Shown one piece after another: positions 1 through 18,900 of a stretch of DNA of 27,289 nt. This DNA comes from a virus. The DNA is taken from positions 1 to 27,289 of the IMG/VR virus record IMGVR_UViG_3300047564_005595; one strand, given 5' to 3'. Positions within the stretch are counted from its first letter, which is position 1. Each line of letters begins with the position of its first letter. The notes beneath the pieces were generated by a model, which saw only the letters and a list, made by a program, of their open reading frames with translations, did not search any database and was not told where the DNA came from. The translations under genes were made by a program, and so were the position numbers.

Positions 1-179
1 TCCAAACTCCGGACAAGTTCAGCAAGTTTGCATACTTCGGGATCGACACTCGCGCACTTGCTAACATTGGCGATGAATTCTTCGGGATTGGTATTGGTCG
101 CCTGTATGCTGGAATCTATCCCACCCGGACGGGATTTGAGATTGCGGCAGGCGTCACCGACCACAACGGGTGCCTGTGA
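1..179 (+). CDS. C-terminal fragment of unidentified protein (5' truncated)
   Basis: An open frame enters from the left edge (codons in phase with base 3) and ends at TGA 177-179, giving 58 residues that end in AAGVTDHNGCL. The composition looks like a folded globular protein: aromatic-rich, with FAYFGIDTRALANIGDEF followed by FGIGIGRLYAGIY. The stop is followed by a GC-rich stem-loop and a promoter-like element, as expected for a real gene end. I do not recognise the family. The start and most of the protein lie outside the window. A competing ATG-started frame at 28-237 overlaps it but runs through the stem-loop and promoter element, so I reject that one. Confidence 0.55.
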   Translation, partial: QTPDKFSKFAYFGIDTRALANIGDEFFGIGIGRLYAGIYPTRTGFEIAAGVTDHNGCL

Positions 180-200
180 CAGTGTGAGGAGTGGCACAAG

Positions 201-222
201 GGGAGGCGACAGGATGCCTCCC
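201..222 (+). terminator. Stem-loop of intergenic cassette A
   Basis: GGGAGGC (201-207) pairs exactly with GCCTCCC (216-222) around an 8-base loop. It follows TGGCACAAGGGG (192-203) and lies just 5' of the -10-like TATACT. There is no proper T-tract, so it could be a weak terminator, an RNA-end stabiliser or a processing site rather than a classical intrinsic terminator. The same arrangement recurs at 481-500, 954-972 and 1212-1233. Confidence 0.55.
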
Positions 223-229
223 TGCCCCT

Positions 230-248
230 TATACTGATTAAGTCAACC
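230..248 (+). promoter_or_regulatory. Promoter-like element A (TATACT ... AAGTCAACC)
   Basis: TATACT at 230-235 resembles a sigma70 -10 box. Four bases later comes AAGTCAACC (240-248), whose core AGTCAAC is identical in all four cassettes at the same distance from the -10-like box. The position of a -35 box would fall at the edge of the stem-loop, and no TTGACA is visible. The start codon at 261 lies 12 bases beyond the conserved block. The role as an early promoter is inferred from repetition and position. Confidence 0.5.
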
Positions 249-260
249 GCAAGGGTCGCC

Positions 261-470
261 ATGCTCACTGATCACGCCACTCCCGCCGACTTTGCCCGAT
301 GGGAGGCAAAGGCAAAGGTCATGACCGATGCCGAACTGCTTTGGTCCGCCCGCGATGCCCGCGCTGCTGCTGAGGCGATGCGGGGTTGGAATCCCATTGC
401 TGAGGGTCGCTATGATGACGAGGCATTTACCTATGGTGACGAGATCCGCCGCCGTCGTGCCAGTCGCTAA
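261..470 (+). CDS. Small unknown protein, 69 aa
   Basis: An ATG-started ORF encodes a 69-residue charged protein, probably alpha-helical. It is Ala-rich in the middle (WSARDARAAAEAMRGW) and ends in an Arg cluster (EIRRRRASR). It starts 12 bases after the conserved AGTCAACC block of cassette A and ends 2 bases before cassette B, so it sits exactly between two regulatory elements. AAGGG at 251-255 is a weak Shine-Dalgarno candidate. I do not recognise the family and propose no function. Its size and placement fit the tiny early proteins that T4-type phages carry in their variable regions. The antisense frame at 427-654 is discarded. Confidence 0.65.
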   Translation: MLTDHATPADFARWEAKAKVMTDAELLWSARDARAAAEAMRGWNPIAEGRYDDEAFTYGDEIRRRRASR

Positions 471-480
471 GGTGGCACAA

Positions 481-500
481 GGGGACCGCTAAAGGTCCCC
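481..500 (+). terminator. Stem-loop of intergenic cassette B
   Basis: GGGGACC (481-487) and GGTCCCC (494-500) form a perfect 7-bp stem around the 6-base loop GCTAAA. TGGCACAA lies directly upstream at 473-480, just after the stop of the 69-residue gene. The sequence after the stem is ACCCATCC, not a T-tract, so termination efficiency is uncertain. Confidence 0.6.
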
Positions 501-510
501 ACCCATCCTG

Positions 511-529
511 TAGAATTTCAGAGTCAACC
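511..529 (+). promoter_or_regulatory. Promoter-like element B (TAGAAT ... GAGTCAACC)
   Basis: TAGAAT (511-516) followed by TTCA and GAGTCAACC (521-529) has the same geometry as elements A, C and D. The flanks CTG and CAG give a partial dyad across the -10-like box. The start codon of the next small gene is at 541. No canonical -35 is visible because that position lies within the stem-loop. Confidence 0.55.
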
Positions 530-540
530 GGAAACGAAAC

Positions 541-702
541 ATGACCCGCCTGGACGTGATCTGCCCTTCTGCCCCTTGGGAGAACACCACTACCGATGAG
601 GACCGTGCGTGGGATCTCTGCCTCTCCCTCAGTGAGGAGTTTGGTTATGCTCAAGTTCGGCAGAATGGAATCATCATCGGAGATTACACTAACGGTCAGT
701 GA
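541..702 (+). CDS. Small unknown protein, 53 aa
   Basis: ATG 541 to TGA 700-702 encodes 53 residues, beginning MTRLDVICPSAPWENTTTDE and ending IIIGDYTNGQ. The start lies 11 bases after the AGTCAACC block of cassette B, and the stop is followed within 8 bases by an 8-bp stem-loop. It is acidic in the middle (DEDRAWDLCLSLSEEFGYAQ), suggesting an amphipathic helix. There is no recognisable family, signal peptide or membrane segment. The upstream sequence GGAAACGAAAC is only a weak ribosome-binding site. The case for it being real rests on its fit between two regulatory elements and on sharing strand and base composition with its neighbours. Confidence 0.6.
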   Translation: MTRLDVICPSAPWENTTTDEDRAWDLCLSLSEEFGYAQVRQNGIIIGDYTNGQ

Positions 703-709
703 TTCTTAA

Positions 710-731
710 GGGGGGATCAAACAATCCCCCC
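710..731 (+). terminator. Stem-loop after the 53-aa gene
   Basis: GGGGGGAT (710-717) pairs with ATCCCCCC (724-731) around the 6-base loop CAAACA, an 8-bp stem. It is followed by ATTCTTT, the closest thing to a T-tract in this region, so it is the best intrinsic-terminator candidate of the set. This gap lacks both the TAGAAT box and AGTCAAC. Confidence 0.6.
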
Positions 732-761
732 ATTCTTTCCCCACCATTCTTGATTCAAATC

Positions 762-944
762 ATGGCAATCTTTTCCCGCTGCTGCAACATCCAAACTCAG
801 GAAGAGTATTGGGCGCCTCATGATGCTGCAACTCACACCGCCCAAACATTCGCTGGAATGGATTGTGGGAACGATGCAGCATTCTTCGCCAAGAATTGCA
901 GTGAGACATATGCTGGCGATGTTAAGCCTGTGACAATCGACTGA
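762..944 (+). CDS. Small unknown protein, 60 aa
   Basis: I place the start at ATG 762 (MAIFSRCCNIQTQEEYWAPH...). The frame is open further upstream to 699, but that extension would run through the stem-loop at 710-731 and encode low-complexity residues. From 762 the protein is 60 residues and ends TYAGDVKPVTID. Four cysteines (two adjacent near the N-terminus, then one in MDCG and one in KNCSE) and two histidines in HDAATHTAQTF are notable for so short a protein. Metal binding is conceivable but not shown. There is no clear Shine-Dalgarno. The stop is followed directly by TGGCACAAGGGG of cassette C. Confidence 0.55.
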   Translation: MAIFSRCCNIQTQEEYWAPHDAATHTAQTFAGMDCGNDAAFFAKNCSETYAGDVKPVTID

Positions 945-953
945 CTGGCACAA

Positions 954-972
954 GGGGGGTCTCCGATCCCCC
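954..972 (+). terminator. Stem-loop of intergenic cassette C
   Basis: A G-run (954-959) can pair with CCCCC (968-972) over TCTCCGAT, giving a 5-bp all-GC stem. It is weaker than the stems in cassettes B and D. TGGCACAA (946-953) is immediately upstream. It occupies the same place in the cassette as the other stem-loops. Confidence 0.45.
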
Positions 973-983
973 GATCCATCCTG

Positions 984-1002
984 TAGAATTACAGAGTCAA
1001 CC
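984..1002 (+). promoter_or_regulatory. Promoter-like element C (TAGAAT ... GAGTCAACC)
   Basis: TAGAAT (984-989) is followed by TACA and GAGTCAACC (994-1002). The -10-like box sits in the inverted repeat CTGTA-GAAT-TACAG (981-994), which could be an operator or simply a constraint on the promoter. The next start codon is at 1016. Confidence 0.55.
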
Positions 1003-1015
1003 AAAGGGACACCCA

Positions 1016-1204
1016 ATGTTCACCTTTACCTTCCTTGCCACCTTCTATGGTCCTAACGGTATCGAGAATGACAGCGTGGCAATCGACGCCCCCAATCTCA
1101 AAGTGGCGACCGAGTTTGCTGAGCGGGAGATTAACGGGGTTAACAGTTTCGCGGATTGCCTAATCGATCTGGTGCTTCTGTTCACCACTGAGATTCAGGA
1201 CTGA
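1016..1204 (+). CDS. Small unknown protein, 62 aa
   Basis: ATG 1016 encodes 62 residues. It begins with a hydrophobic aromatic stretch (MFTFTFLATFYGPNG), has a charged helix-like middle (ATEFAEREINGVNS) and ends FADCLIDLVLLFTTEIQD. AAAGGGACA at 1003-1011 provides a modest Shine-Dalgarno. The motif DCLIDL is also present in the unrelated-looking 54-residue protein at 1514-1678, perhaps a shared helix. It lies between cassettes C and D. The family is unrecognised and no function is proposed. Confidence 0.65.
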   Translation: MFTFTFLATFYGPNGIENDSVAIDAPNLKVATEFAEREINGVNSFADCLIDLVLLFTTEIQD

Positions 1205-1211
1205 TCAAACA

Positions 1212-1233
1212 GGGGGACCCGCAACGGTCCCCC
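1212..1233 (+). terminator. Stem-loop of intergenic cassette D
   Basis: GGGGGACC (1212-1219) and GGTCCCCC (1226-1233) form a perfect 8-bp stem around the loop CGCAAC. The leading TGGCACAA seen in the other cassettes is degenerate here (ATCAAACA). There is no T-tract after the stem. Confidence 0.6.
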
Positions 1234-1241
1234 CGACATGG

Positions 1242-1259
1242 TAGAATTACAGAGTCAAC
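1242..1259 (+). promoter_or_regulatory. Promoter-like element D (TAGAAT ... GAGTCAAC)
   Basis: TAGAAT (1242-1247), TACA and GAGTCAAC (1252-1259) repeat the arrangement of elements B and C. The gene it serves starts at 1274, preceded by GGGAGA at 1262-1267. Confidence 0.55.
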
Positions 1260-1273
1260 ACGGGAGACCAGTC

Positions 1274-1453
1274 ATGACCTACACCCCGACCAATCTCAAT
1301 CGTGCCCTGCTTCAGACCAGCAGCGGTGCCGTCGTTATTGTTAACGATGATCGCCGCCTGTCTGTAGAGCAAATGCAGCAGTGGGTTGATACAATGAATC
1401 AGTATCTGATTAGCAAGGGTACTGATAAGGTTGCCCGCTACTATTTGGGTTAA
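1274..1453 (+). CDS. Small unknown protein, 59 aa
   Basis: ATG 1274 is chosen because it follows the AGTCAAC block and a GGGAG Shine-Dalgarno (1262-1266). An in-frame GTG/ATG extension to 1238 would overlap the promoter-like element. The 59-residue product begins MTYTPTNLNRALLQTSSGAV, has a short beta-like segment (AVVIVNDDRRLS) and then a helix-like segment (VEQMQQWVDTMNQYLISKG). That could make a compact alpha/beta microprotein. It has no membrane segment and no recognised family. The next gap has no cassette, so the following gene may be co-transcribed with it. Confidence 0.65.
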   Translation: MTYTPTNLNRALLQTSSGAVVIVNDDRRLSVEQMQQWVDTMNQYLISKGTDKVARYYLG

Positions 1454-1513
1454 TCTAACCCGTCCTGAGCATGACACTAAACTGCTCAATCTTCCCCCTG
1501 ATTCGTTAGTCTC

Positions 1514-1678
1514 ATGCCCGTCGCAATTTCTTATAATCAGGCACTGGACTTTGCCGGTCAGTGTATGGTTTCTAATGAGTTTCTGAGTGAGTATGGTTCC
1601 GCTATTCGCTGGCAGGATTGCCTCATTGACCTCGGTGAACTTATGCAGTTCGTGGAGGATAAACTCAACGGGCAGTAA
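1514..1678 (+). CDS. Small unknown protein, 54 aa
   Basis: ATG 1514 to TAA 1676-1678 encodes 54 residues, starting MPVAISYNQALDFAGQCMVS and ending MQFVEDKLNGQ, probably mostly helical. It contains IRWQDCLIDLGELM, sharing DCLIDL with the protein at 1016-1204. The 60-base gap upstream (1454-1513) has neither TAGAAT nor AGTCAAC and only an imperfect GAGCA/TGCTC hairpin, so transcription probably continues from element D. The stop is followed by TATACT and a strong 12-bp hairpin. No family is recognised. Confidence 0.55.
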   Translation: MPVAISYNQALDFAGQCMVSNEFLSEYGSAIRWQDCLIDLGELMQFVEDKLNGQ

Positions 1679-1688
1679 GGTATACTTA

Positions 1689-1721
1689 GTGGGCGCTGAG
1701 TTTGTGACACTTAGCGCCCAC
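1689..1721 (+). terminator. 12-bp hairpin closing the small-gene array
   Basis: GTGGGCGCTGAG (1689-1700) pairs with CTTAGCGCCCAC (1710-1721), 12 bp with one G-T wobble and a 9-base loop. TATACT (1681-1686) lies just upstream. No T-tract follows, so it may act as an RNA-end or processing structure, or as a boundary between the GC-rich array and the AT-rich late region. Confidence 0.5.
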
Positions 1722-1905
1722 ACATCCGTGCTTAAATACAGTCATTAGTCGTGCTTATCGACAGTGTTCTGATTGATAAGCGATCCTTATAACGGGCGCC
1801 AAGCGATAAGAATCAATGGGTCCCTGTAACCTACAACGACCCATAAGACCATATGTTCTATAAACCTCAAAGTCCACAAAAAAATCCCCCGTCAGAAAAA
1901 CCAAA
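1722..1905 (+). other. Gene-free stretch with three consecutive stem-loops
   Basis: I find no credible ORF here. Three potential stems follow one another: CTTATCGA (1754-1761) with TTGATAAG (1773-1780); GATCCTTAT (1782-1790) with ATAAGAATC (1806-1814), one mismatch; and ATGGGTC (1816-1822) with GACCCAT (1838-1844). I could not fold this into a tRNA cloverleaf and found no TTCGA-type T-loop. It may be a structured leader or a small RNA. Which of these it is, or neither, cannot be decided by reading. Confidence 0.35.
1731..1738 (+). promoter_or_regulatory. Possible T4-type late promoter (CTTAAATA)
   Basis: CTTAAATA matches TATAAATA, the T4-type late -10 sequence, at 6 of 8 positions. It sits at the join between the GC-rich small-gene array and the AT-rich module. 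The next ORF begins at 1906, so a transcript from here would have a long leader containing three stem-loops. A second imperfect candidate, TATAAACC, is at about 1857-1864. This is weaker than the sites at 4629 and 18936. Confidence 0.3.
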
Positions 1906-2088
1906 ATGAATTACCCCTTATATCAAAAAATTCGCCGCCAAAAAAATTACTCAAAAACCCCCTATTGGAATTTTTGGAAGGTTGTGTTTGCCGGTTGGTT
2001 AATTCGTTATCCAGGTAAGGTTTTCCGTATTCTTGGAGTGCCTCTGGGAATTCTGATTGTGATGATATATAATGCACTGACAAAATAA
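1906..2088 (+). CDS. Small membrane protein, 60 aa, unknown
   Basis: ATG 1906 encodes a basic 60-residue protein. The first 38 residues are rich in Lys, Arg, Tyr and Trp (IRRQKNYSKTPYWNFWK), and residues about 39-57 form one hydrophobic segment (VFRILGVPLGILIVMIYNA). This points to a single-pass inner-membrane protein with a positively charged N-terminal side. A small phage membrane protein (holin-like, or a host-interaction factor) is possible but unproven. No good Shine-Dalgarno is visible (AGAAAAACCAAA). The complementary frame on the - strand (1892-2083) is less plausible because every neighbouring gene is on +. It ends 6 bases before the next ORF. Confidence 0.55.
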   Translation: MNYPLYQKIRRQKNYSKTPYWNFWKVVFAGWLIRYPGKVFRILGVPLGILIVMIYNALTK

Positions 2089-2094
2089 AAAAAC

Positions 2095-2280
2095 ATGCCC
2101 GACAAAATATATCACATATATCTACGTGGACAGTGCATATATCATTGCCTCAAAGAAGAAGAATTCCAAAAAACTTGGAGTGTTCTCAATCGCCTCGCAG
2201 AGTTTCTTTCTAACACCTCTGAGTTGTCTTATGAAGAACTATCAGTGAATAAAGAAGTGTATCTGAATTCTTCCCATTGA
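2095..2280 (+). CDS. Conserved small cyanophage protein, 61 aa
   Basis: ATG 2095 encodes 61 residues beginning MPDKIYHIYLRGQCIYHCLK and continuing EEEFQKTWSVLNRLAEFLSN. From memory, small proteins with this pattern (KIYxIYxxGxCxYHxLKEEEF followed by a TW-containing helix) are common in T4-like cyanophages near the baseplate genes. None has a function known to me. The N-terminal half alternates like a beta hairpin and the centre looks helical. It follows the membrane-protein ORF by 6 bases with no strong Shine-Dalgarno, and is followed by the homing-endonuclease gene. Confidence 0.7.
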   Translation: MPDKIYHIYLRGQCIYHCLKEEEFQKTWSVLNRLAEFLSNTSELSYEELSVNKEVYLNSSH

Positions 2281-2331
2281 CAAGATGATATATAATCTGT
2301 TAAAATTGATTTGAGGTTAATTAAAAATTTA

Positions 2332-2808
2332 ATGACTTTATTAGAAAAATTTTCTAAGTGTCTCCCAGATATACTTGATGAAAATCAATGCTGGGAATGG
2401 AAAGGAAAAATTGATGCCTATGGTTATGGGTATATTTGTAATAATAATAAAACTTTGAAATCTCATAGAGTTTCCTATGAAATTTATTATTCAGAACCTT
2501 TAGGGGATTTACATTGTCTCCACAAATGCGATAACCCTTCTTGTGTAAATCCACTGCATCTATTTTCTGGAACTAATTTCGATAATATTAGAGATAAAGT
2601 TAATAAGGGAAGATGCTATACTGGAAATCAAAAAGGTCAGAACAATGGTGCATCAAAATTGACAGATATTGATGTAAAAAATATTAGAATGTTGCATAAT
2701 ACTAAAAATTATACAACACATAAACTTGGAGAAATGTATAATGTTCATCGTTCTACAATTTCTTACATCGTAAATAATAAAACTTTTAAACATTTATTGG
2801 AGGATTGA
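2332..2808 (+). CDS. Free-standing HNH homing endonuclease
   Basis: The product of 158 residues has an HNH_3-type nuclease core followed by a DNA-binding tail. Residues 19-35 (QCWEWKGKIDAYGYGYI) and HRVSYE (45-50) open the domain. HKCDNPSCVNPLHLFSGT (64-81) is the signature, with His64, Asn73 and His76 plus Cys66/Cys71 in the expected places. Residues 107-152 (ASKLTDIDVKNIR ... VHRSTISYIVNNKTFKH) look like the helix-turn-helix that commonly follows it. I prefer ATG 2332 over TTG 2311, although its upstream GAGG is rather distant (about 15 bases). Such genes nick or cut a cognate site in phages lacking them and spread by repair. It sits between two conserved phage genes, typical of a mobile insertion, and its last codons supply the Shine-Dalgarno for the next gene. 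It appears intact. Confidence 0.85.
   Translation: MTLLEKFSKCLPDILDENQCWEWKGKIDAYGYGYICNNNKTLKSHRVSYEIYYSEPLGDLHCLHKCDNPSCVNPLHLFSGTNFDNIRDKVNKGRCYTGNQKGQNNGASKLTDIDVKNIRMLHNTKNYTTHKLGEMYNVHRSTISYIVNNKTFKHLLED
2799..2803 (+). promoter_or_regulatory. Shine-Dalgarno GGAGG that sets a TTG start
   Basis: GGAGG lies inside the last codons of the HNH gene, 8 bases before TTG 2812. The first downstream ATG in frame is much further in and lacks such a site. The match to the conserved protein start (MAKGFTVKA) also supports initiation at TTG. Confidence 0.75.
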
Positions 2809-2811
2809 AAG

Positions 2812-3579
2812 TTGGCAAAGGGTTTTACTGTAAAGGCAACAGCACCCAAACCTAAGGAACAGGAATGGGATTATGATTCAATTAAAGAAAGAATGAGAGG
2901 TAAATCAATCGTATTCTGTTTACCCGGAAGAGGTTGCTCCTTTATCTTTCTCAAAGCATTTGTTCAATTATGCTTTGATCTAGTTCAGAATGGAATGAGT
3001 ATTCAGATTTCACAAGACTACTCATCTATGGTAAACTTTGCACGATGCAAAGTTCTTGGAGCAAATGTTCTCAGGGGTCCGAAGCAAATTCCTTGGGATG
3101 GAAAACTTCAGTATGATTATCAACTCTGGATTGATAGTGATATTGTTTTTGATTCCAATAAGTTTTGGCAACTCTGTGATCTAGCTCTTAACGAAGAAGA
3201 AGAAGAAAAGGAAATCGTTGCTGGTTGGTATGCCACAGAAGATGGTCACACAACTTCAGTAGCACATTGGTTAGAAGAAGATGATTTCCGTAAGAACGGT
3301 GGTGTGATGAATCATGAAACCGTAGAGAGCATCAGCAAGCGTCGTAAACCATTTACAGTGGATTATACTGGATTTGGTTGGGTCCTGATTAAAAAAGGAG
3401 TTTTTGAGAATCTTGAGTATCCTTGGTTTGCTCCAAAGATGCAAGTATTTGAATCAGGCGCCGTTCAGGACATGTGTGGGGAGGATGTTTCATTCTGCCT
3501 TGATGCAAAAGAACAAGGTTATGACATTTGGTGTGATCCTCGCGTTCGCGTAGGTCATGAAAAAACACGTATTATTTGA
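2812..3579 (+). CDS. GT-A glycosyltransferase, cyanophage type
   Basis: The 255-residue product resembles the family-2-like glycosyltransferases I recall from many T4-like cyanophages. A Rossmann-like strand appears at residues 31-38 (KSIVFCLP). The metal- and nucleotide-sugar-binding DxD is Asp108-Ser-Asp110 in LWIDSDIVF. A late acidic motif, CGEDVSFC (222-229), and the terminal DPRVRVGHEK (242-251) with His249 complete the pattern. An insertion of consecutive glutamates (128-132) lies in a loop. Length and ends look complete. Translation starts at TTG 2812, supported by GGAGG 8 bases upstream. Substrate and acceptor are unknown. Plausible acceptors are virion proteins, phage DNA or a host surface glycan. 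It is followed 19 bases later by a gene with its own good Shine-Dalgarno, suggesting one operon. Confidence 0.85.
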   Translation: MAKGFTVKATAPKPKEQEWDYDSIKERMRGKSIVFCLPGRGCSFIFLKAFVQLCFDLVQNGMSIQISQDYSSMVNFARCKVLGANVLRGPKQIPWDGKLQYDYQLWIDSDIVFDSNKFWQLCDLALNEEEEEKEIVAGWYATEDGHTTSVAHWLEEDDFRKNGGVMNHETVESISKRRKPFTVDYTGFGWVLIKKGVFENLEYPWFAPKMQVFESGAVQDMCGEDVSFCLDAKEQGYDIWCDPRVRVGHEKTRII

Positions 3580-4656: not shown

Positions 4657-5058
4657 ATGCCGTTAGAACGGGTAAGTAAAGGATTTAAAGACCTTAGTAT
4701 GTCTTTTCAAGTAAATCCTCTTAACTATGATTTAATTGCACTTAAAAATGAAAGTGCGATTGCCCGTTCTGTTCGAAATTTAGTACTTACTTATCCAGGA
4801 GAACGTTTTTTTAACGAAAATCTCGGATCAAAAGTAAGTCGTTCTCTTTTTGAAAATGTAGATGAGATCTCAGCATCAATTATCAAAGACGAGATTGAAA
4901 ATACTATTCGTAATTATGAGCCTAGAGTTAATTTAATTGAAGTGATTGTTTCGCCAAATTATGATAATAATGAATTTAATGTCACGATAAATTATCGTAT
5001 TGTGGGAATTGATGTCCTTCCACAGCAGTTATCATTTGCACTTCAGCCAACAAGATAA
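4657..5058 (+). CDS. 25: Baseplate wedge protein, gp25-like
   Basis: The 133-residue protein corresponds in length to T4 gp25 (132 aa) and belongs to the gpW/gp25 (lysozyme-like fold) family. The conserved core is SVRNLVLTYPGERFF (38-52) with LGSKVSRSLFE (56-66), followed by the helix and strand IRNYEPRVNLIEVIV (84-98). In T4-type phages gp25 is part of the baseplate wedge core and contacts the first sheath ring. It directly precedes gp6, its structural partner, with the stop TAA abutting the gp6 ATG. A late promoter is upstream, but the leader (TTTTTATAGTTTTT) has no Shine-Dalgarno. Confidence 0.93.
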   Translation: MPLERVSKGFKDLSMSFQVNPLNYDLIALKNESAIARSVRNLVLTYPGERFFNENLGSKVSRSLFENVDEISASIIKDEIENTIRNYEPRVNLIEVIVSPNYDNNEFNVTINYRIVGIDVLPQQLSFALQPTR

Positions 5059-6969
5059 ATGGCACTAGTTAATTTTACTAATTTAGACTTCGATCAAATT
5101 AAAAGTTCTCTTCGCGAGTATCTTAGAGCGAATTCAAACTTTACTGATTATGATTTTGAAGGATCAAATCTTTCCACTTTAATTGATGTTTTAGCATATA
5201 ATACCTACATTACCTCATATAATGCTAATATGATTAGCAATGAGGTTTTTATCGATAGTGCTACTCTCCGAGAAAACGTTGTATCGCTAGCAAGGAATAT
5301 TGGGTATGTTCCCCATTCTCGTGCAGCATCAAGAGCAAACATCTCATTTTTTGTTGATACTACTGGATTTACAACAAAACCAATTACCTTAACACTTAAA
5401 AGTGGTGTTGTTTGTGCAACAAATTCTTCTTTTGGAAGTCAAAGTTTTTCTTTTATTATTCCTCAAGATATTACAGTTCCTGTTGTTAATGGAATTGCTT
5501 TATTTGAAAATATTGATATCTACGAAGGAACATTCATAGTTAATAATTTTACCGTAGATTCAAATAATCCAAACCAAAAATTTATTTTAGAAAATGCTAA
5601 TATTGATGTAAATTCTATTAATGTTTTTGTAAGAGATACACAAGCAAGTTCAATTAGAAGAACTTTTAAATTATCAAAGAATTTATTTGATATAACTTCA
5701 GAGTCTAAAGTATTCTTTATTCAAGAAATTGAAGACCAAAGATATGAATTAATTTTTGGCGATGGTATTTTTGGCAAAAAACTTGAAAATTTAAATTATA
5801 TTGAAATTTCTTATAATGTAACTAATGGAGAATCTGGAAATGGAGTATCATCTTTTGGATTTAATGGTCGTATTGTTGATAATAATGGAAGAATAATTAC
5901 ATCAGGTATTTCTTTAATTACTACAAATTCTTCTTCTCAAAATGGAAGAGAAATTGAATCAGTAGAATCTATTAAAAAGTATGCTCCTAGAAAATATGCA
6001 TCACAAAATCGCGCAGTAACTGCAACTGACTATGAAACCATTATACCAACAATATATCCAGAAGCAGAATCTATTTCAGTTTTTGGTGGGGAAGATCTAA
6101 ATCCACCAAAATATGGAAGAGTTTTCATATGCATTAAACCAATTAATGGTCCATTTGTCTCAAATCAAGTTAAAGACAATATCGAAAGAGATTTGAGAAA
6201 ATACTCTGTTGCTGGAATTGTTGCTGAAATTATCGATCTTAAGTATCTGTATATTGAGACTGACACAACAGCATATTATAATTCAAACTCTACATTAGAT
6301 CCCAATAACCTTAAAGATATCATTCTCAGTAACATTAGAAACTATGCCAATTCAAAAGAATTGAATAAGTATGGAGCGAGATTTAAATATAGTAAGTATT
6401 TAAAAGTAATTGATGATTCCAATATTGCAATAACTTCTAATATAACAAAAATCACAATGAGACGTGATTTAAGGGTTGAAGCAAATAAATTTGCAGATTA
6501 TGAAATTTGTTATGGTAATGAGTTTTATATTAAAAACCAAAATGGATATAATATTAAATCTTCTGGATTTAAAATTTCTGGTATTAGTGACACATTGTAT
6601 ATTTCGGATCTTCCGAACTCAGATGGTTTAACTGGAAGTATATTCTTTTTTAAATTACCTTCAGCATCACAACCAGTAATTGTAAAAAGAAATGTTGGAA
6701 AAATTGATTATGTGAAAGGTGAAATTCTATTATTCCCGGTAAATATAAATTCAACATCAAAAACCTCATTTAATCAACCAATTATTCAAATTTCGGTTAT
6801 TCCAAAATCAAATGATGTAATTGGATTACAGGATTTGTATTTGCAACTAGATATTAATAATAGTGTGTTAAATATGTTATCTGATGAAATTTCTTCTGGT
6901 TCAGATATTTCTGGATCAACATATAAAATTACATCAAGCTACACCAACGGAGACCTTGTAAGAATATAA
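5059..6969 (+). CDS. 6: Baseplate wedge protein, gp6-like
   Basis: The 636-residue protein is close to T4 gp6 in length (660 aa) and shows the baseplate-J-like pattern. The N-terminus has NLSTLIDVLAYNTYITSYNA (55-74) and ATLRENVVSLARNIGYVPHS (89-108). The centre contains YELIFGDGIFGKKLENL, and then the J-like AVTATDYETIIPTIYPEAES with WGGE-like FGGEDLNPPKYGRVFICIKP. gp6 dimers form the inner iris ring that holds the six wedges together. ATG 5059 follows the gp25 stop with no gap and no Shine-Dalgarno, implying translational coupling. The C-terminal part is more variable and cyanophage-specific. Confidence 0.92.
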   Translation: MALVNFTNLDFDQIKSSLREYLRANSNFTDYDFEGSNLSTLIDVLAYNTYITSYNANMISNEVFIDSATLRENVVSLARNIGYVPHSRAASRANISFFVDTTGFTTKPITLTLKSGVVCATNSSFGSQSFSFIIPQDITVPVVNGIALFENIDIYEGTFIVNNFTVDSNNPNQKFILENANIDVNSINVFVRDTQASSIRRTFKLSKNLFDITSESKVFFIQEIEDQRYELIFGDGIFGKKLENLNYIEISYNVTNGESGNGVSSFGFNGRIVDNNGRIITSGISLITTNSSSQNGREIESVESIKKYAPRKYASQNRAVTATDYETIIPTIYPEAESISVFGGEDLNPPKYGRVFICIKPINGPFVSNQVKDNIERDLRKYSVAGIVAEIIDLKYLYIETDTTAYYNSNSTLDPNNLKDIILSNIRNYANSKELNKYGARFKYSKYLKVIDDSNIAITSNITKITMRRDLRVEANKFADYEICYGNEFYIKNQNGYNIKSSGFKISGISDTLYISDLPNSDGLTGSIFFFKLPSASQPVIVKRNVGKIDYVKGEILLFPVNINSTSKTSFNQPIIQISVIPKSNDVIGLQDLYLQLDINNSVLNMLSDEISSGSDISGSTYKITSSYTNGDLVRI

Positions 6970-6973
6970 TAAA

Positions 6974-9900
6974 ATGACAGAAACCAGAATCAAAATCAGT
7001 TCAATTGTCGATAATCAACTTCCTCAATTTGTTAGAGAAGAATTTCCTTTAGTATCAGAATTTTTATCCCAATATTATACCTCTTTGGAGAATCAAGGGG
7101 GAACTAGTGATATACTTCAAAATATTGATCAATATATTAAAGTTGACAATCTAACAAATTTAATTGATTCTACAAATTTAAGTTCTGATGTAACTTTTTT
7201 TGATTCGACTATTAATGTAATATCAACAGCAGGATTTCCAGATTCTTATGGTCTCCTGTTAATAGATTCTGAAATAATTACATATACGTCAAAGACCTCT
7301 ACAAGTTTTGAGGGATGTGTTCGTGGATTTAGTGGAATCACATCATATGAAGTAAAAGATGAATTAATTTTTTCAGAAAGTGAATCGGAAGACCATTCTT
7401 CAGGGTCAATTGTTACTAATCTAAGTATTCTTTTTTTAAAGGAATTTTTAAATAAAGTTAAAAAACAAATTACTCCAGGATTTGAAAATAGAGAGTTATA
7501 TTCAGAATTAAACGAAAGACTTTTTATTAAACAGTCAATTGATTTTTATTCATCAAAGGGAACCGATAGTTCCTTTAAAATTTTATTTGCTGCATTATAT
7601 GGTCAAAATGTTGAAATTATTCGTCCTAGAGATTATTTAATTCAACCATCTGATGCTCAATATAGAATTACTTTGGATTTAGTTGTAGAAGCAATTGAAG
7701 GAAATCCAGAAGATCTTGTTAATGCAACATTATATCAAGACAAAACAGATTTTATAGATGCTGCACAAGGAACTATTACAAAAGTCGAAAAAATTAGAAG
7801 AGATAATAAAAATTATTATGTAATTAGTTTAGATTCTGGTTATGATAAGGATATTGAATCTATTGGATCAGTTTATGGTAAATTTACGATTCACCCAAAA
7901 ACAAAAGTAACTTCAACAATATTATCAGGTTCAAATACTATAGAAGTAGATTCTACGGTTGCATTTCCTAATAGAAATGGTAATCTAATTGTTGATTTAG
8001 AAAATGGTACTACTTTAAACCTTACATATACTTCAAAAACCTTAAATCAATTTTTAGGATGTTTTGGAATTACTCAAGATATTCCAAAATCTTCTGAAAT
8101 AAAATTTGATTCTTTTGCTTCATCAAAAGATAAAAATATAAAAGTTCGTATTTTAGGGGTCCTCTCAGAATTTAAAATACCAGAAAGAACACGTTTTTAC
8201 TCTAAAGGCGATTTAATTAAGATTAAAACTTTGGGAATAGATTCAAAAGATACAAAATCAAATAATTGGTTTTTTAATATTCCAGTAAAATATGATGTTC
8301 AATCTATTTTAATAGAAGATTTTCCAAATGATTCAAATTCATCATCATCAGTATTGTATCGAATTAATACATATGATGATAATTTTCTAAGGATTGGTGA
8401 TTATGTCACGTTAATTTCATCTTCAGGGGGTGAAAAATTTGGATATATTTCATCTATTATTAATAAAAAATCTTTCAGTATTAATTTTGGATCAAGAAAA
8501 GAGTTTGGAAGTCAATTGAATATCAATTCAATTTATACTATTGAAAAAAATATATCTAAAGTTTTAATTAAAGATTATCCCTCCGTTGAACAGTATACTG
8601 CAAATGTTCAAAATGTATATTTGGATAATGAAGGTTCTTTATATGTTGCAGCACCTTCACTTCCAAATTATTTAAATAGAAATATAAAAATTAATGATCA
8701 ATCAGTAACATTTAGTGGCACTTTTAGTGGTACAACATTGAATATTGGTATTCATGGATTTTATACAGGAGATTCTATTGTATATAAACCATCCCCAAAT
8801 AATAATTTAGGTATATCTACTGGGGTATACTTTATCAAAAAAGTAAGCGACACTGAAATAAAACTATCAAGAAGTAAAGATAATATTTTTTATGAAAAGT
8901 TTATCACGGTAAATGGCACAGTAACTAATGCTAAGTTTGAATTAGTAGAATTTACATATAGAGATTTAAGTACTCAACTTTTAGATTCCCAAAAACTTAT
9001 CAGAAAAATTTCATTACCAGAAGTTGACGGTAAGATTTATGAAACCGAACCTGGACTTACTGGAATTTTTGTTAATGGTATAGAATTATTAAATTATAAA
9101 TCTAAAGATAATGTTTACTATGGTCCAATCCAAGAAATTATCCCAACTGCGCCTGGGTCAGATTATGATGTAATTAATCCACCAATATTAACAATCAGCG
9201 ATCCAATAGGATCTGGTGCGAATGCTCATTGCTCAGTAATTGGAAATCTTAAAAGAATTGAGATTATAGATCCAGGATTTGATTATATCGAAGAACCAAC
9301 GATTGAGATTACTGGGGGAAATGGATTTGGTGCTTCCGCGAAGGCAAATTTAGTCAGTTTCGATCATGAGGTTTCTTTTAATTCGCAAAGTTCTTCGGGA
9401 TTGGTAAAATTAAATCCTATTAATACTATTGAATTTTATAATTATCACAAATTTCGTAATGCTGAAGAAATAATTTATATCACTGATGGACAAAATGGAA
9501 TAAGTGGATTAACTACTAATTCATCTTATTTTGTGTCTATTCAGGATGCTTATACTGTAAAGTTGCATAATTCATTTTCAGATGCTGTTTCTGGTATTAA
9601 TACTATTTCATTGACATCATATGGAATAGGAAATCAATCATTCAGATGTAAAAATAAAAAGAAAAAGATAGGATCAATTGCAATAGAAAATGGTGGATCT
9701 AATTATCAAAATAAACTAACTACAACTAATGTAAGTGGCATTAATACTGCATTAGATACTATTAATATTAAAAGTCACGGATATCAAAGTGGTGAGATAA
9801 TTACCTATAATTCAACCGAATCTTCTATTGGAGGATTATCATCATCTACTTCTTATTACGTTACTAAGATAACTGATGATAGTTTTAAATTATCATCATT

Positions 9901-12900
9901 AGGAATTGGAACTATAGGGGTTAGTACATCTTTTTATTATGATACTAAACAATACGTTGATTTAACTTCACTTGGTTCTGGAATTCATAAGTTTAATTAT
10001 CCAGAAATCAAAGTATCAGTTAAAGGTAGAATTGGAGTTTCTACTTTAACAAATCAGAATTTTGATGCTATTATTCAACCGATTTTTAGAGGTGAGATTC
10101 AATCTGTATCTATAGAGAATGGTGGTTCTAAGTATGGATCCCAAGAAATTATTAATTATAATAGACAACCATCATTTACGTTAAATTCTGGATCTGGTAT
10201 TGAACTTACTCCAATCGTTTCAAATGGACAAATTGTTGATGTAATTATTAACAAATCTGGAAGTAATTATAATTCTATTCCTAATCTTGAAGTTGTTGGT
10301 GATGGAACTGGTGCAATTTTAACACCTATAATATTAAATGGATCTTTGATTGAAGTGAAGATAATTTATGGAGGAATAGACTATACTCAAGATAGTACAT
10401 CTATTATTGCTACTTCTTCGGGTACTGGATCTAAGTTTGAATGCAATATTAAATCTTGGAAAATTGATTTAGTAAAGAGGTTAATATACAATTCTAAACT
10501 ATTTGAAGATGAGGGTATTTTAACCAAAGGATTGAATAGTGATTATGGACTAGAATATTCACATGCGTATGCATCAAGATCATTAAGAGCATCTGTTCAA
10601 GCAACAAGCTTTAGAGATGGGAATCAAGTTTATATTCCTGATCTTGAAAATGATATTGAAGAAAATCCAAGTCATTCTCCAATTATTGGATGGGCATATG
10701 ATGGAAATCCAATTTATGGACCTTATGGATATTCATCAAAAACTGGTGGATCGGTAAAATCTTTAGTTTCTAGTTATAAACGAATTATAACCCCAGATAG
10801 ACCTGGAGGATCCGGAGAATCATTATATCCATGGGGATTTTTTGTAGATGATTATGAATATGTTGGTGATGGAGATCTTGATGAGCATAATGGAAGATTT
10901 GGAGTAACTCCTGAATATCCAAATGGTGTTTATGCTTATTTTGCAACTCTGGAGCAATCTGATAAAACGCCAAGTTTTCCTTATATTATAGGACCATCTT
11001 ATAAATCAAAACCAATAGATTTTAATTTTAGAACTGACTCAAATCAAGATTTTATTGATATTAATATGACCGGATGGAAGAGAAATACAACTCCATATGG
11101 TCTTTTAAATGAAAAAACTTATTATGAATTTCTTACAGATTCAAATAAAATTAAACCTCAAATTTCTATAGTTAAAAATGTATTAAAAGGTACTGTAGAT
11201 TCTATTGGAATTGTCACAGGAGGAAAAGATTATGAAGTTGGTGATCAAATAATATTTAATAGCGAAAACCAATTAATTACAGGAGCAAAATCTAGTGTTT
11301 CTTTAGTTAAAGGAAAATTAATATCTCAAATTAATGCCGAAATATCTTCTTTTAACGACGTTATTTTATATCCAAGTGGAAGAACTGGTAAATTTATTGG
11401 ATTTACTACGACTCCTCATAATTATAAGAATAATGATTTAGTAACATTTACTGGTAAATTTGACTATAAAAAATCCTCAACTATAAATGTAAATTCCAAT
11501 ATTCTTACGCTAATTTCTGGCGTAGGATCTACACAATATACGGGAATAGTGACTTATTTCAATGTAAGTGGTAATTTAAATTATCCATACATTAGAGAAA
11601 ATGATGTCTATCAAATAGGTAATGAACAAATAAAAATTCTAAACGTAGAACCAAATTTATCAAGAATTAGAGTTCTTCGAAATCAAAATGGTATAGTTGG
11701 ACTTACAAGCTACTCTGTAGGTACTGAAATTATTGAAAAACCAAAAAGATTTTCAATTAATTTAGGAATTTCTACAACATATAACTTTAATATTAATAAA
11801 GAATTGTATTTTAATCCAATAGAATCTGTTGGACTTGGTACATCTTTTGGTGTTGGTATTGTAAGTACCATTTATTTTTCAAATCCCGGATTTGGTATTA
11901 CACAAATTTCTATTCCAACACAATCAATTTATTTACCCAATCATAATTTATCTACTGGGGATTCTTTGATTTATTCATCTAATGGAGGAACAGGAATTTC
12001 AGTTTCTACTGATAGAAATTATACTTTTGAACTCCAAAATAATTCATTATTATATGTTGCAAAAATTTCAAATGATTTAATTGGCATTTCTACAGTTAAA
12101 GTTGGATTGGGATCAACTGGATCTTTTAATAATTTAGATTCTACTGAAGGTGGAATATTGTATTTCACTTCAGTAGGAGTTGGAGATACTCATAGTTTTA
12201 AGACAAATTATGAAAATACTTTAGTAGGATCAATTTCTAAAAATACTGTTACAGTATCAACTGCAGAAACTCATGGACTTTCTGTGTCTGATAGTGTAAT
12301 TATTAATGTAAATGTAGGAATAAGTACTACCTTTGTTGTAAAATATGATGATTATAATAGAAGAATATTGATTAATTCTAGAACATTTTCCTCTATTGAT
12401 ATTAGTAACAATATAATTACAATTAATGACCATAATTATTATACTGGACAAAAAATTGTATATACTTCAAATACACCAGCAATTGGATTAACAAATAATA
12501 ATTTTTATTATGTAATCGTTGTAGATGAAAATACTTTTAGATTATCTAATAGTTATTATGGTGCAACTAAAAATGATCCAGAAATAATTGATATTTTATC
12601 TTCCACTTCTGGAACTATTTCACCAATTAATCCACCACTTCAAATAATTAAAAATCAACAAATTACTTTTGATCTTTCTGATTCTTCACTTTCTTTTATT
12701 AGTAATGCAAGATCATACTCTGCATTTGAATTTAAACTTTATACTGATAATAAATTTACTCAAGTATTTGATACTACTCAAACTTCAAATAGATTTGAAG
12801 TTTCTCAAGTTGGAAGAGTTGGAATTGATTCGACTGCAAAATTAAGTATATTAATTAATGACCAAATCCCAAACAATTTATATTATAATTTAGTACCAAT

Positions 12901-15900
12901 TAATTTAGATTTAAATTCACAAGTCAAGCAAGAAATTGTTAATGATAATGAGGTTATTTCTTCAAACCAAATTTCAATAGTTGAAAGTGAATATAATGGA
13001 AGACATACCATTGTAGGAGTTGGATCAACATATTTTCAGTTCAATATTTTAGAAAAACCTAAATTTCAAACTCTTACTTCAAATTCCAATAACCTTGAGT
13101 ATTTTACAGATACTTTAGGAATTAAAGGTGAGATTCAAGAAATAGTAATCTCAAATAAAGGAAATTACGATTCTCTACCTGTTGTCAATTCTATAATATC
13201 AAAATCTGGTTCCGAATCAGTTATAGTTCCTATATCAGATTCAATAGGAAGAGTTTCGTCAACAGAAATACAAGACATTGGCTTTGAATATTCTGCCGAT
13301 TATAGTGTAAGACCTATTGCAAAGTTTCCGGATATTTTGAGACTTAATCCATTATCAACTTTTGACAGGATTGGTATCACTTCATTTGGAAAAAACTATA
13401 CTATTGCACCGGATCTTATTGTAATTGATGGATTAACTAATAAAGTAATTGAAGATGTAAATTTACTGTATTCTATTGGTGATAAAACTGTAACTATTCG
13501 TAAAAATACATATGAGTTAAGCGATGTTACACCTAAGATTATTCCTATAAACAATCCCAATGGAATAAAAATTAAAAATATAGTATTTGATAATATAACA
13601 AAGGATGTAACTGTAACTTTGGGTGCAAGTTTTAGTGACCCCGAAGATTATCCATTTTTTATTGGAAGTAATGTATTAATTGAAGGCGTGAGCGTAGGAG
13701 TTGGATCAACTGGTAGAGGGTATAATTCTTCAAACTATAATTATACACTATTTACTTTAACTGGCATCGATCCAAATATTGGTGGAGCTATCGGTGTTGT
13801 AACTTTTAATATGTCTTCTTACCTAAGAGAAGACGAAATACCAGGAACATTTAATAGTTTTAACTCTTCAGGTAGAATAGTTCCAGAATCTTATTTTCCA
13901 ATTTTCAATCCTATACTTAAGAAAAACAATTTCTACAAAGGAGAAATTGTTTATTCAGCGACAGCAACTGGTAATGTTGAAAATTGGGATCCTAATCAAC
14001 AATATCTTAAGGTATCTACTATAGATGAGTTTGATATTAATCAAACAGTTAGAGGAAAAACTTCAGGTTCTGTAGGCATTATTAATGAAATTATTGGATT
14101 TGAATCTGATTATAAGGTTAATTCATATTCTCAAATTAGAAAAGGTTGGAATCGTGAAACAGGATTTTTAAATAATGATTTTCAAAGAGTTCATGATAAT
14201 GACTATTATCAATATTTTTCTTATGAATTAAAATCTAAAATTGATCTAAACACATGGGATAATTCAGTAAGTGCTTTAAATCATACTGCAGGATTTAAAA
14301 AGTTTGGCAATTTAATCATTGAATCAACACAACTAAATGGGGGCATTTCTACAGATCAAAATCAAGGAGATTTTACTGGTATTTCAGATTTATCTTCTTT
14401 TGTAAGTTTAAACTGTGTATATGATTTTGATTTAGTGCGAGAAAATAATCTGTATATAGATCAAGATATTAAATCAGATGAAATAATATTTAATTCTGCT
14501 ATTATTCAAGATTATATTGAATCGATCGGAAATCGAGTATTAATGATTGATAATATTTCAGATCAATTTAATAGTAATCCACGACCAACTGATTTTAGCG
14601 TTGTAGATTCTTTTAAATTAAATGAATTTAGATCAAAAAAATATATTTCATTTGTTATGGATAAAAGATTTACCAATGAATGTGAACTAGGTTTAATTTC
14701 TTTAATTCATGATAATTCTTTTGGATTTTTGAACCAATATGGGTCAATTTCACCATTTAATACTCTTGGATTTTTTGATTTTAATATTTCGGGAACAGAT
14801 GGAAATTTATTATATTATCCAGTTAAATCAAAATATGATAATTATCATATTGAATTATTTTCTTTCTCACTAAATGATATAAGTAGTGGAATTGGAACTG
14901 TAAATTTAGGCGATTCTGTTTGTATTAATACAAACACTAATATTATTCCTCAGGGAACCATTTCGCCAATAGGTGTAGTAGGAATAGCGTCTACATATAG
15001 ATCTGCAAAAGTTCTTGTTCAAATTGGGGCAACTGATTCTTCATATTTTGAATATGATGAAATCACTTATATTCATGATAATAATAATGTTTATTTTATT
15101 GATTATGGGCAACTTTCTACAGATAATTTTGGATATAATTCATCTTCTGGAATTGGAACATATGATGCTTACTTATCTGGTTCAAATGTCCAAATCGATT
15201 TAATTCCTAATTTTGAAACCTCAGTTGATTATGTTATTAATACTTTTAATGTATCATTAGGAAATTCGAGCGTTTCTGGTATTGGCACTGAAATAATTGA
15301 AGGAAGTTCAATAAATTCTTCTTCAGTTAGTATTGCATCTTCAAGTTTTCCAGTTTCGAATGTAATTGCAACATATTCTACTCTATCAATAAGCTCCAAA
15401 AATTATAACTCTTCATACTCAATTATTAGTATTGAAGATAAAACTAATTTAAATTATCAAGTTTCTGAATTTTTAACGGTATTAAGTGATTCAAATTGTT
15501 ACACTACTGAATTTGGAATTGTCCAAACAGGTTCTTCTCTTGGTATTATAACTGCAGGACTTTCTGGATTAGATGTAAATATTTACTTTACACCAATTGA
15601 AAATATTGATGTTGATGTTAAAGTATTTAAGGTTGATGTTGGATTAGATCCTGATTCTGGAGAAATTTCATTACTAAATGGGTCTTTAAATTATGATTAT
15701 GGCAGTTATACTGGATCTTATAATGATGTTAAAAAAGAGTTTAATTTAACTCATAAAAATATACCAATTTTCCAAAGAAACTTTGATGGCAGTAATTCAA
15801 ATATTGTAAATATTGAAAATAATACAATATCGATTGAAAACCATTTTTATATTACTGGAGAAGAAATTGAATATTCTTATCCAGGAGTTGGAACTACCCA

Positions 15901-18900
15901 AGCAATAGGAATAGCAACGACATCAATTGCTGGAATTGGAATCACAGATAAATTACCTTCTTCTTTATTTGTAGTGAAAGTTAATGATATAGGTATTCAA
16001 GTTGCTGCATCTGCATCTGAAGCACTCAAAACAATTCCAAATACATTAGATTTAACTTCTGTTGGAATAGGAAGTGTACATACTTTTACATCAAAAAATC
16101 AAAATAATAAGGTTATAATTGGAATTGACAATGTAATTCAATCTCCGGTTGTTTCCACATCAATTACATCGTTTTTAACAAAAAATGTAACTCCACTTGA
16201 TTTTGATATTTATTGCTCAGACATAAGTTCTATTTTTAGTGGTGATTTAATTAAGATTGGTGATGAAATTATGAAAGTTTCTGCTGTAGGTGTTGGAAGT
16301 ACAAATTCAATATTAGTCATTAGATCTTGGTTGGGAACTGAAGAATTATCACACAATCAATATGATATTGTTACTAAAGTTTTTGGTACCTATAGTATCT
16401 CAAATAATACCCTCTATTTTTCTGAGGCACCATTTGGTAAAATTCCTTTCACAAATTTTTCAAATAATCCAAGTGAGCAAGATTATATTGGCATATCTAC
16501 AAGTTCTACTTTTAGTGGAAGAGTATTTTTAAGATCTGGAATTTCAGATACTACAAATGAACCTTATAGTAATAATTATATTTTTGATGATATTTCTGAT
16601 CAATTTAATGGATTTGAAAATACATTTACATTAAAATCAAATAATTCAAATGTGACTGGAATATCAACAGACAATGCAATTTTATTGATCAATAGTATTT
16701 TCCAAGGACCAGTATCAACTAATATTGACGGAGATTATAATTTGATTGAAAATACTGGAATAACAAGTATTACTTTTACTGGAGTTGCAAATTCAACAAG
16801 TTATGATGTGAATACTGGAAGTCTTCCTAGGGGTGGTATTATTCTTTCATTAGGATCTACTCAAGGATTTGGATATCAACCATTAATTTCTGCTGGAGGA
16901 ACGGCAATTGTATCCTATGCAGGAACAATTCAATCTATTAGCATTGGTAATAGTGGATCTGGATATAGATCTGGAATTCAAAAAATTATTAATGTGGGAG
17001 TTAAAACTGAGAATTTAGAATCATCAACTATAGAATTTGTCGGGGTTGCTTCTGTAATAAATGGTAATATCGTAAGTATTGCGATTACAAATCCTGGAGT
17101 TGGATATACTTCATCAAATCCTCCAATTGTTGTATTTGATTCTCCTTTATCATATTCAAATCTTCCTCTAATTTATAGCCCTCAATCTTCAGTGGGACTA
17201 GGAACTGGTGCAGTTATAGATATCGTCGTTGGTCAAGGATCTAGTGTCATCTCGTTTGAACTAAAAAATCTTGGATATGGATATAAACGAGGTGAAATCC
17301 TTACCGTTTCAATTGGAGGAACACTTGGAATTCAAACAACTTATTCTTCAAATTTCTCAGAATTTCAAATTATTATTGATAATATCCAATCTGATCAATT
17401 TACTGCTTGGTCAATTGGCAATCTTCAAGTAATTGATCCGTTAGATTCATTATTTGATGGGAATAGAAAAGTATTCCCAATACTAATTGAAGGTAATCAA
17501 ACTACAATTAGATCTAAAAAAGGATCTAATATTGATGTTCAAGCATCTTTATTGGTGTTTATAAATGACGTTTTGCAAGTTCCAGGTCAAGGTTATATAT
17601 TTGCTGGTGGAAGTAGAATAGAATTTACTGAGGCACCTAAAATAGGAGATAAATCTAAAATTATATTTTACAAAGGAACAGGTGATATTGATACTCAAGT
17701 TATTGATATTCTTGAGACTATTAAAGTTGGAGATAATGTTCAAATTAAGAGTGATGATATTATATTAAATCAAAATGATAGATTAGTTACTGAAATTATT
17801 TCCTCAGATATCATTGAAACAAATATATATTCTGGACCAGGAATATCTCAAAATGAAAATTTATTGAGACCAATTCTTTGGTGTAAACAGACTGAAGACT
17901 TGTTTGTAAATGGGCAATCTGTTGGAAAAAATAGAATCATTTATGAATCTTATATTCAACCAGTTTCAAGCATTATCCAAAATGTTGGAATCGGATCTAC
18001 TATAATTTTTGTTGAAAATGTAAAATCTTTATTTGATAATGAAAGAGAATATATCCATGACGGAACAATAGAAAAACCCCAGAATAAAATTTTAATTGTA
18101 TCTCAAGATAATATAGTTTCTGCTGCTGCAACTGCTGTGGTTTCTATTTCTGGAACTATTTCTTCGATTATTATTTCTGATGGTGGCGTTGGTTATAGTA
18201 CATCTCCTACAGTTTCAATAGGCAATCCTGTTGGAATAGCAACTACTGGACTTGCTCAATTAAATGCAACAATAATAAATGGATCTGTAACATCTGTATC
18301 AGTTATTGATGGTGGATTTGGATATGATTCATCTCAACCACCAATGGTTTTAATTGAACCACCTGAACCAAAATATGAAGTTATAGATAATATTTCTTAT
18401 ACTGGAGATTTTGGTGTCATTACTGGAATCAAAACAACTTCTGTTGGCGTTGCATCCACAGGTATTGTGTTTGATTTCTTCATCCCACAAAATTCTCCAT
18501 TGAGAGATGGTAAAACAGTTACAGTTGGGATTGCAACTACTGGAATTAGTGGAATTCAAACTGGATATTATTTTACTATCAATAACTCAAATGTTGGTCA
18601 AGGACTCACATCTCTAAATTCTTCTGGAGGTGTAGTTGGAGTTGGTACTACTTTTATTGATAACATTTATCAAGTTGCTGCAGTTTCCATAGCACAAACT
18701 GCGGTTTCGGGGGTTGGGGTTACTTATGTTGCCCAAGTAACTGTAAGCGTCTCTAATTATAATGGTTTAAGTGGTATTGGGTACAGTGGTTTTTATGGCG
18801 AATATAGTTGGGGAAGAATCTCTACACCAACTAGAAAAAATCCGCAGCAGTTTACCTCATATGCAAACATTGGAGGAATTTCTACATCACCAACAATTCA

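Follow-up and report, generated by a model that had tools for sequence, protein, structure and literature searches.

Promoter-early stem-loop (PeSL) cassettes of T4-type phages were reportedly described by Arbiol in 2010 and by Comeau in 2014. They are composites that lie between the small genes of hyperplastic regions, and S-PM2 is listed as having no high PeSL density (PMC4503421). The middle promoters of T4 depend on a different element, the MotA box, a short monomer site centred at -30 and 12 bp from the -10 box (PMC2988021). Cyanomyoviruses have neither motA nor asiA, and the control of their early and middle genes has been termed unclear (PMC2984593). Host-like sigma70 early promoters have been attributed to these viruses (Mann 2005 and Weigele 2007, cited by PMC2984593). 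In the portion of the cyanomyovirus promoter literature covered here, no mention was found of a palindrome or of a fixed spacing, and coverage being partial, the novelty of the element described below is provisional; the only match to the motif letters in cyanophage papers was a primer.

We analyzed a virus fragment of 27,289 bp (the window, meaning the whole stretch of DNA), which was placed among T4-like cyanophages by its gene content, including g25 (4657-5058) and g6 (5059-6969). Its closest DNA matches are Synechococcus phages, e.g., S-SRM01 and S-SM2. Repeated cassettes sit in an island of small genes with 49-58% GC (window 1-1700), and small-gene regions directly before g25/g6 are also found in S-RIM32, S-SRM01, P-HM2, and Syn9. 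The structural part (1801-27289) has a GC content of mostly 25-33%, as opposed to 49-58% in the island, a drop that might mean that the small genes match the composition of a GC-rich host or donor. An HNH endonuclease gene (phrog_59) lies at 2311-2808, between the island and g25/g6, and a 3988-aa reading frame (6974-18940) directly follows g6, in the position of the "baseplate wedge initiator" of S-SRM01. The features of the island are as follows.

175-198, + strand: dyad of copy 1, TGTGACAGTGTGAGGAGTGGCACA; score 15.8 of 16.2, gap of 31 to the -10 box
177-179: stop codon of the gene entering the window from the left, overlapped by the copy 1 dyad
201-222, + strand: hairpin of copy 1, 7-bp stem, from folding
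230-235, + strand: -10 box TATACT of copy 1, from sequence and spacing class
240-247, + strand: leader of copy 1, AAGTCAAC
261-470, + strand: small gene A, 69 aa, without family match
456-479, + strand: dyad of copy 2, CGTGCCAGTCGCTAAGGTGGCACA, containing the stop codon of gene A; score 15.2, gap of 31
481-500, + strand: hairpin of copy 2, GGGGACC-GCTAAA-GGTCCCC, from folding
511-516, + strand: -10 box TAGAAT of copy 2
521-528, + strand: leader of copy 2, GAGTCAAC
541-702, + strand: small gene B, 53 aa, phrog_17176, function unknown
710-731, + strand: hairpin of the fifth gap (703-761), with a T-rich tail; the sole terminator-like match in 1-1800
762-944, + strand: small gene, 60 aa, without family match
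929-952, + strand: dyad of copy 3, TGTGACAATCGACTGACTGGCACA, containing the stop codon of the upstream gene; score 15.7, gap of 31
954-972, + strand: hairpin of copy 3, GGGGGGTC-TCC-GATCCCCC, from folding
984-989, + strand: -10 box TAGAAT of copy 3
994-1001, + strand: leader of copy 3, GAGTCAAC
1016-1204, + strand: small gene C, 62 aa, without family match
1188-1211, + strand: decayed dyad site of copy 4, of which short remnants are left; score 5.0
1212-1233, + strand: hairpin of copy 4, GGGGGACC-CGCAAC-GGTCCCCC, from folding
1242-1247, + strand: -10 box TAGAAT of copy 4
1252-1259, + strand: leader of copy 4, GAGTCAAC
1274-1453, + strand: small gene D, 59 aa, no convincing family match

The preliminary description of this DNA had proposed four repeated cassettes between the tiny genes, and all of their elements are present where they were claimed. 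The sequence TGGCACAAGGGG, assigned to three of the four gaps, indeed starts at 192, 473, and 946. AGTCAAC occurs at 241, 522, 995, and 1253, 12 to 14 bases before a start codon, and is preceded by TATACT (230) or TAGAAT (511, 984, and 1242), a 4-base spacer, and A or G. The stems (201-222, 481-500, 954-972, and 1212-1233) differ in sequence, and all are paired, with an MFE of -16 to -19; an Rfam search of window 1-3000 returned no family. While this promoter-like order stood, the left half of a palindrome and the loss of the dyad from copy 4 had been overlooked. Alignment of the copies showed that TGGCACA belongs to a 24-bp imperfect palindrome, TGTGMCASTY-N4-RASTGKCACA, of which it is the right half; the half-sites are 10 bp apart almost without exception. 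This dyad scores 15.2-15.8 of 16.2 in three of the four copies, and the next best score in the window is 12.2. Copy 4 keeps the stem, the -10 box, and the leader without it, so the dyad may be dispensable. The fifth gap (703-761), in which neither dyad nor AGTCAAC was found, is a decayed or replaced cassette. Within the window alone the AGTCAAC count is not significant (6 seen versus 2.7 expected, with 7 of 100 shuffles reaching 6); the significance of the repeats comes from relatives.

The family proved far larger than the window. TAGAATTNCAGAGTCAAC was found in 26 stretches of IMG/VR contigs, usually preceded by a GC-rich stem of differing sequence and almost always followed at a short distance by a start codon; three of these stretches (L006, L007, and L016) are one unrelated coding sequence. 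A composite pattern with the same layout and other stems matched at least 120 IMG/VR stretches, and single contigs (L015 and L030) carry 8 to 12 copies each; a search with the pattern CTACAATTNNCARAGTCAACC gave no match. The dyad is clear in 10 of the 12 T4-like Synechococcus and Prochlorococcus phage genomes examined (ACG-2014f, S-SRM01, S-RIM32, S-PM2, Syn9, S-CRM01, P-SSM2, P-SSM4, P-HM2, and S-SSM7), with about 30 copies between 27 and 56 kb in ACG-2014f. Six scored genomes have 10 to 34 dyads each, compared to 0 or 1 in the reversed sequence at the same threshold. An absence of copies from related genomes had been noted beforehand as evidence against the cassettes, and many copies were found across T4-like cyanophages. 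The dyad was not found in the S-SM2 genome, and Bellamy has two weak sites at two or fewer mismatches versus one in the control. Genome scans of T4, KVP40, S-TIM5, Ma-LMM01, P-SSP7, and the pelagiphage HTVC008M did not find it either.

In a far larger genome collection, the composite pattern gave 18 scattered matches, of which a single one is cyanobacterial (Leptolyngbya). Across 388 cyanobacterial genomes, a sample that appears to include picocyanobacteria, the strict dyad was counted 5 times, versus 25 times in nine cyanophage genomes, and none of the 5 has a -10 box at 28-31 bp. On these counts, a host origin of the cassette was rejected. By sequence, the cassette is restricted to T4-like cyanophages. 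Several local variants were also observed. At S-SSM7 loci L255-L271, the dyads have outer arms, CAAC-N6 and N6-GTTG, and the right GTTG coincides with the TTG of the -35 element. Several dyads in the 120- to 156-kb region of S-CRM01 (L239) precede tRNA genes. Another repeated palindrome, CTCGACGAG, lies near some of the same small genes in S-SRM01 (L170) and in contigs G005 and G006.

The distance between the dyad and the -10 box is narrowly defined. TA[TGC]A[AC]T follows the dyad at offsets 28, 29, 30, and 31 in 387 dyad readings (15, 107, 191, and 74, respectively), whereas each of the remaining offsets between 0 and 79 has 0 to 8. Some loci had been gathered with a pattern that permitted 22 to 50 bp between the two elements, so the narrow peak at 28-31 was not made by the search; six genomes gathered without a spacing condition gave 65 matches at offsets 28-31 versus 46 at all other offsets combined. 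TA[TGC]A[AC]T is missing at 28-31 from 318 of 673 dyads, many of which have TATGCT or TATTCT. Nineteen dyads are flanked by -10 boxes on both sides at 28-31 bp, a two-sided arrangement that a symmetric factor would be expected to give; in P-HM2, one of these dyads separates divergent genes. The cassettes have a -10 box of the TATAAT type at a fixed position, as sigma70-type promoters do, and the first ATG mostly follows it by 21-29 nt. Matches to 5 or 6 of the 6 positions of the -35 element are enriched (32 versus about 3), yet a TTGACA-like -35 element at 16-18 bp is present in only about a tenth of the copies; in the window, copy 1 alone reaches 4 of 6. The loop of some ACG-2014f hairpins carries TTGGCA at the -35 distance.

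AGTCAAC, which had been regarded as an invariant signal, turned out to be one of several lineage-specific leaders. The leader AGTCAACC is common in one phage group, and other groups carry CATACC, CTCAGTTCAC, or GTAATCAA at this position; the common denominator is probably a short, A/C-rich, unstructured leader. Conservation in the cassette is highest in the 24-bp palindrome and in the fixed distance that separates it from the -10 box, not in the stem or AGTCAAC.

The reading that we favor, and consider probable from the sequence comparisons, is that the cassettes are sigma70-type promoters served by a dimeric, probably phage-encoded factor and merged with a terminator-like hairpin. Each gap is a composite cassette with which one tiny gene closes and the next begins, in the order dyad, GC-rich hairpin (often over the -35 position), -10 box, A/C-rich leader, and start codon. 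A dimeric factor bound to the dyad, centred at about -54, may help the host RNA polymerase at promoters whose -35 elements are mostly poor and would hence need help. The hairpin may end or punctuate the upstream transcript, and the genes served are probably early or middle. A symmetric regulator site placed ahead of sigma70-type promoters would have this layout, and the sign of the regulation would be activation. Several points count against this explanation: early regulation by a phage-made factor requires its injection or prior synthesis, S-SM2 has no dyad, Bellamy has only the two weak sites, copy 4 of the window does without the dyad, most hairpins have no U-tract, and nearly half of the dyads (the 318 of 673 above) have no TA[TGC]A[AC]T at 28-31.

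The opposite sign is conceivable with the same geometry. If the dyad were a repressor or silencer site, a phage factor would shut the promoters off at a defined time; the fixed spacing and the palindrome would be the same, and copy 4, having no dyad, could be a constitutive version. Shut-off does exist, as early genes of P-HM2 fall after their early peak in the dark (PMC5082946). We regard repression as rather unlikely, however, as activators more typically than repressors bind ahead of the core promoter, at a position such as -54, and the poor -35 element of most copies suggests that help is needed.

An explanation that needs no special factor would take the cassettes for plain sigma70 promoters and terminators in the manner of the T4 PeSLs, the dyad being an RNA terminator or a copying relic. 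The S-CRM01 annotation labels two dyads as Rho-independent terminators, some ACG-2014f stems are followed by T-runs, and the good -35 element in about a tenth of the copies would fit as well. The dyad arms, however, show no excess complementarity in 317 nonredundant copies; because they do not covary, the dyad is a DNA site, and an RNA-hairpin reading of the palindrome was ruled out. In P-SSM2, moreover, several dyads lie inside coding sequence, some of them 35-60 bp before a stop codon, so the link to stop codons seen in the window is not general. Finally, the spacing from the dyad to the -10 box is kept where the intervening sequence is unrelated or has no hairpin. Promoters without a dedicated factor are therefore unlikely to account for the cassettes. 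Within the 317 copies, positions 8 and 17 of the dyad tend to carry identical letters (C..C or G..G), an anti-complementary preference with a z of about -7, so that a G in one half-site corresponds to a C in the other. The outer pairs have mildly negative values, for which the score threshold may be responsible.

The hairpin behaves differently from the dyad. Its arms covary, with at most 1 of 100 arm swaps among copies reaching the observed energy in every group tested, which identifies the stem as a constrained structure and bears out the earlier proposal that the stems vary and yet stay paired under selection. A strong hairpin lies between the dyad and the -10 box in about half of the 317 copies, and the hairpin is a constrained, optional feature. 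As in an intrinsic terminator, the stem is GC rich, but most hairpins, including all four stems in the window, have no U-tract directly after the stem; of 164 strong hairpins, 14 have a T-run before the -10 box. Some copies are likely to terminate transcription, and for most this role is putative.

Exchange of single genes, as suggested by the preliminary description, could be followed at two places. The window and L015 are collinear except for one extra cassette gene of L015 between genes A and B, and a 25-bp leader repeat (522-546 in the window) borders the extra unit on either side. In many contigs, gene B (541-702) forms a separate patch of homology, from about 10 bp before its start codon to its stop, and is found behind differing hairpins and differing leader alleles; automatic ORF calls, which overstate diversity, placed 14 groups upstream and 20 downstream of it. 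These observations support modular exchange of genes with borders at the cassettes, which may act as short homologies at which recombination gains, loses, and shuffles small genes. That the repeats are mainly recombination sites, homologous or site specific, with promoter function secondary, would fit the one-gene indel with its 25-bp repeat and changing neighbours but is highly improbable, as homology-driven exchange needs no fixed promoter distances, the short leaders precede ATG, and the spacing is kept across freshwater, marine Synechococcus, and Prochlorococcus phages with differing leaders and fully diverged intervening sequence.

Known site types were also compared. The core of an integron attC site is GTTRRRY/RYYYAAC, which AGTCAAC does not fit. 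A sigma54 reading of TGGCAC was rejected, as there is no TTGC partner and cyanobacteria are not known to have sigma54. CRP binds TGTGA-N6-TCACA and NtcA binds GTA-N8-TAC, and the half-site spacing of the dyad is wrong for either. The factor of the favored reading is more likely phage encoded, because hosts hardly use the site. A screen for candidates retained 78 Syn9 ORFs of 320 aa or less that are also conserved in four further genomes, although many are antisense artefacts; phrog_1308 (Syn9 gp97), phrog_818/DUF7717, and phrog_407/DUF7207 have no known function, and no candidate was established. MarR of P-SSP7 (PMC9692554) was rejected, as this podovirus has no dyad.

Cyanomyoviruses are abundant aquatic viruses whose variable gene content consists largely of small orphan genes. 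The cassette points to an undescribed transcription regulator of T4-like cyanophages, and the 24-bp site, with its constant spacing to the -10 box, is a handle for pulling down the putative factor. The site also allows transcription units to be predicted in hypervariable regions and makes it possible to test promoter cassettes as the driving force of orphan-gene exchange.

Compared with the described systems, the cassettes resemble PeSLs most closely in use. Promoter and stem-loop stand together in gaps between small genes in the four window copies, density is high in hyperplastic regions (L015, L030, and ACG-2014f), and recombination at the cassette would gain, lose, and shuffle single genes, as described for PeSLs. 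Unlike PeSLs, the cyanophage cassette has a 24-bp dyad at a fixed -10 distance and its own leader alleles, and its hairpin is optional and mostly without a U-tract. T4 and KVP40 have no dyad, in agreement with the earlier view that the cassette is independent of the T4 version, and S-PM2, which has no high PeSL density according to PMC4503421, does carry the dyad. The cassettes would work like PeSLs, any homology between the two being putative. The putative Pho box of S-PM2d250, CCTATACT GAT CTCAGTTC, comes from a study that found Pho-box prediction unreliable (PMC10976474); it shares letters with the -10 box plus CTCAGTTC leader allele of this cassette class and may be read as promoter core and leader. 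The TATAAT-type -10 box is shared with the host-like early promoters of cyanomyoviruses, which are perhaps in part the same promoters. Like the MotA/AsiA middle promoters of T4, the cassettes combine a good -10 box with an upstream element that is specific to the phage and stands in for a good -35 element; unlike the MotA box, this element is a 24-bp palindrome, centred near -54, that ends 29-31 bp before the -10 box. We tentatively suggest, with somewhat less than even confidence, that the cassettes may form a promoter class of their own, in which a dimeric phage-encoded regulator at about -54, sometimes serving divergent promoters, replaces MotA/AsiA and is merged with a hairpin over the -35 position and with swap points for orphan genes.
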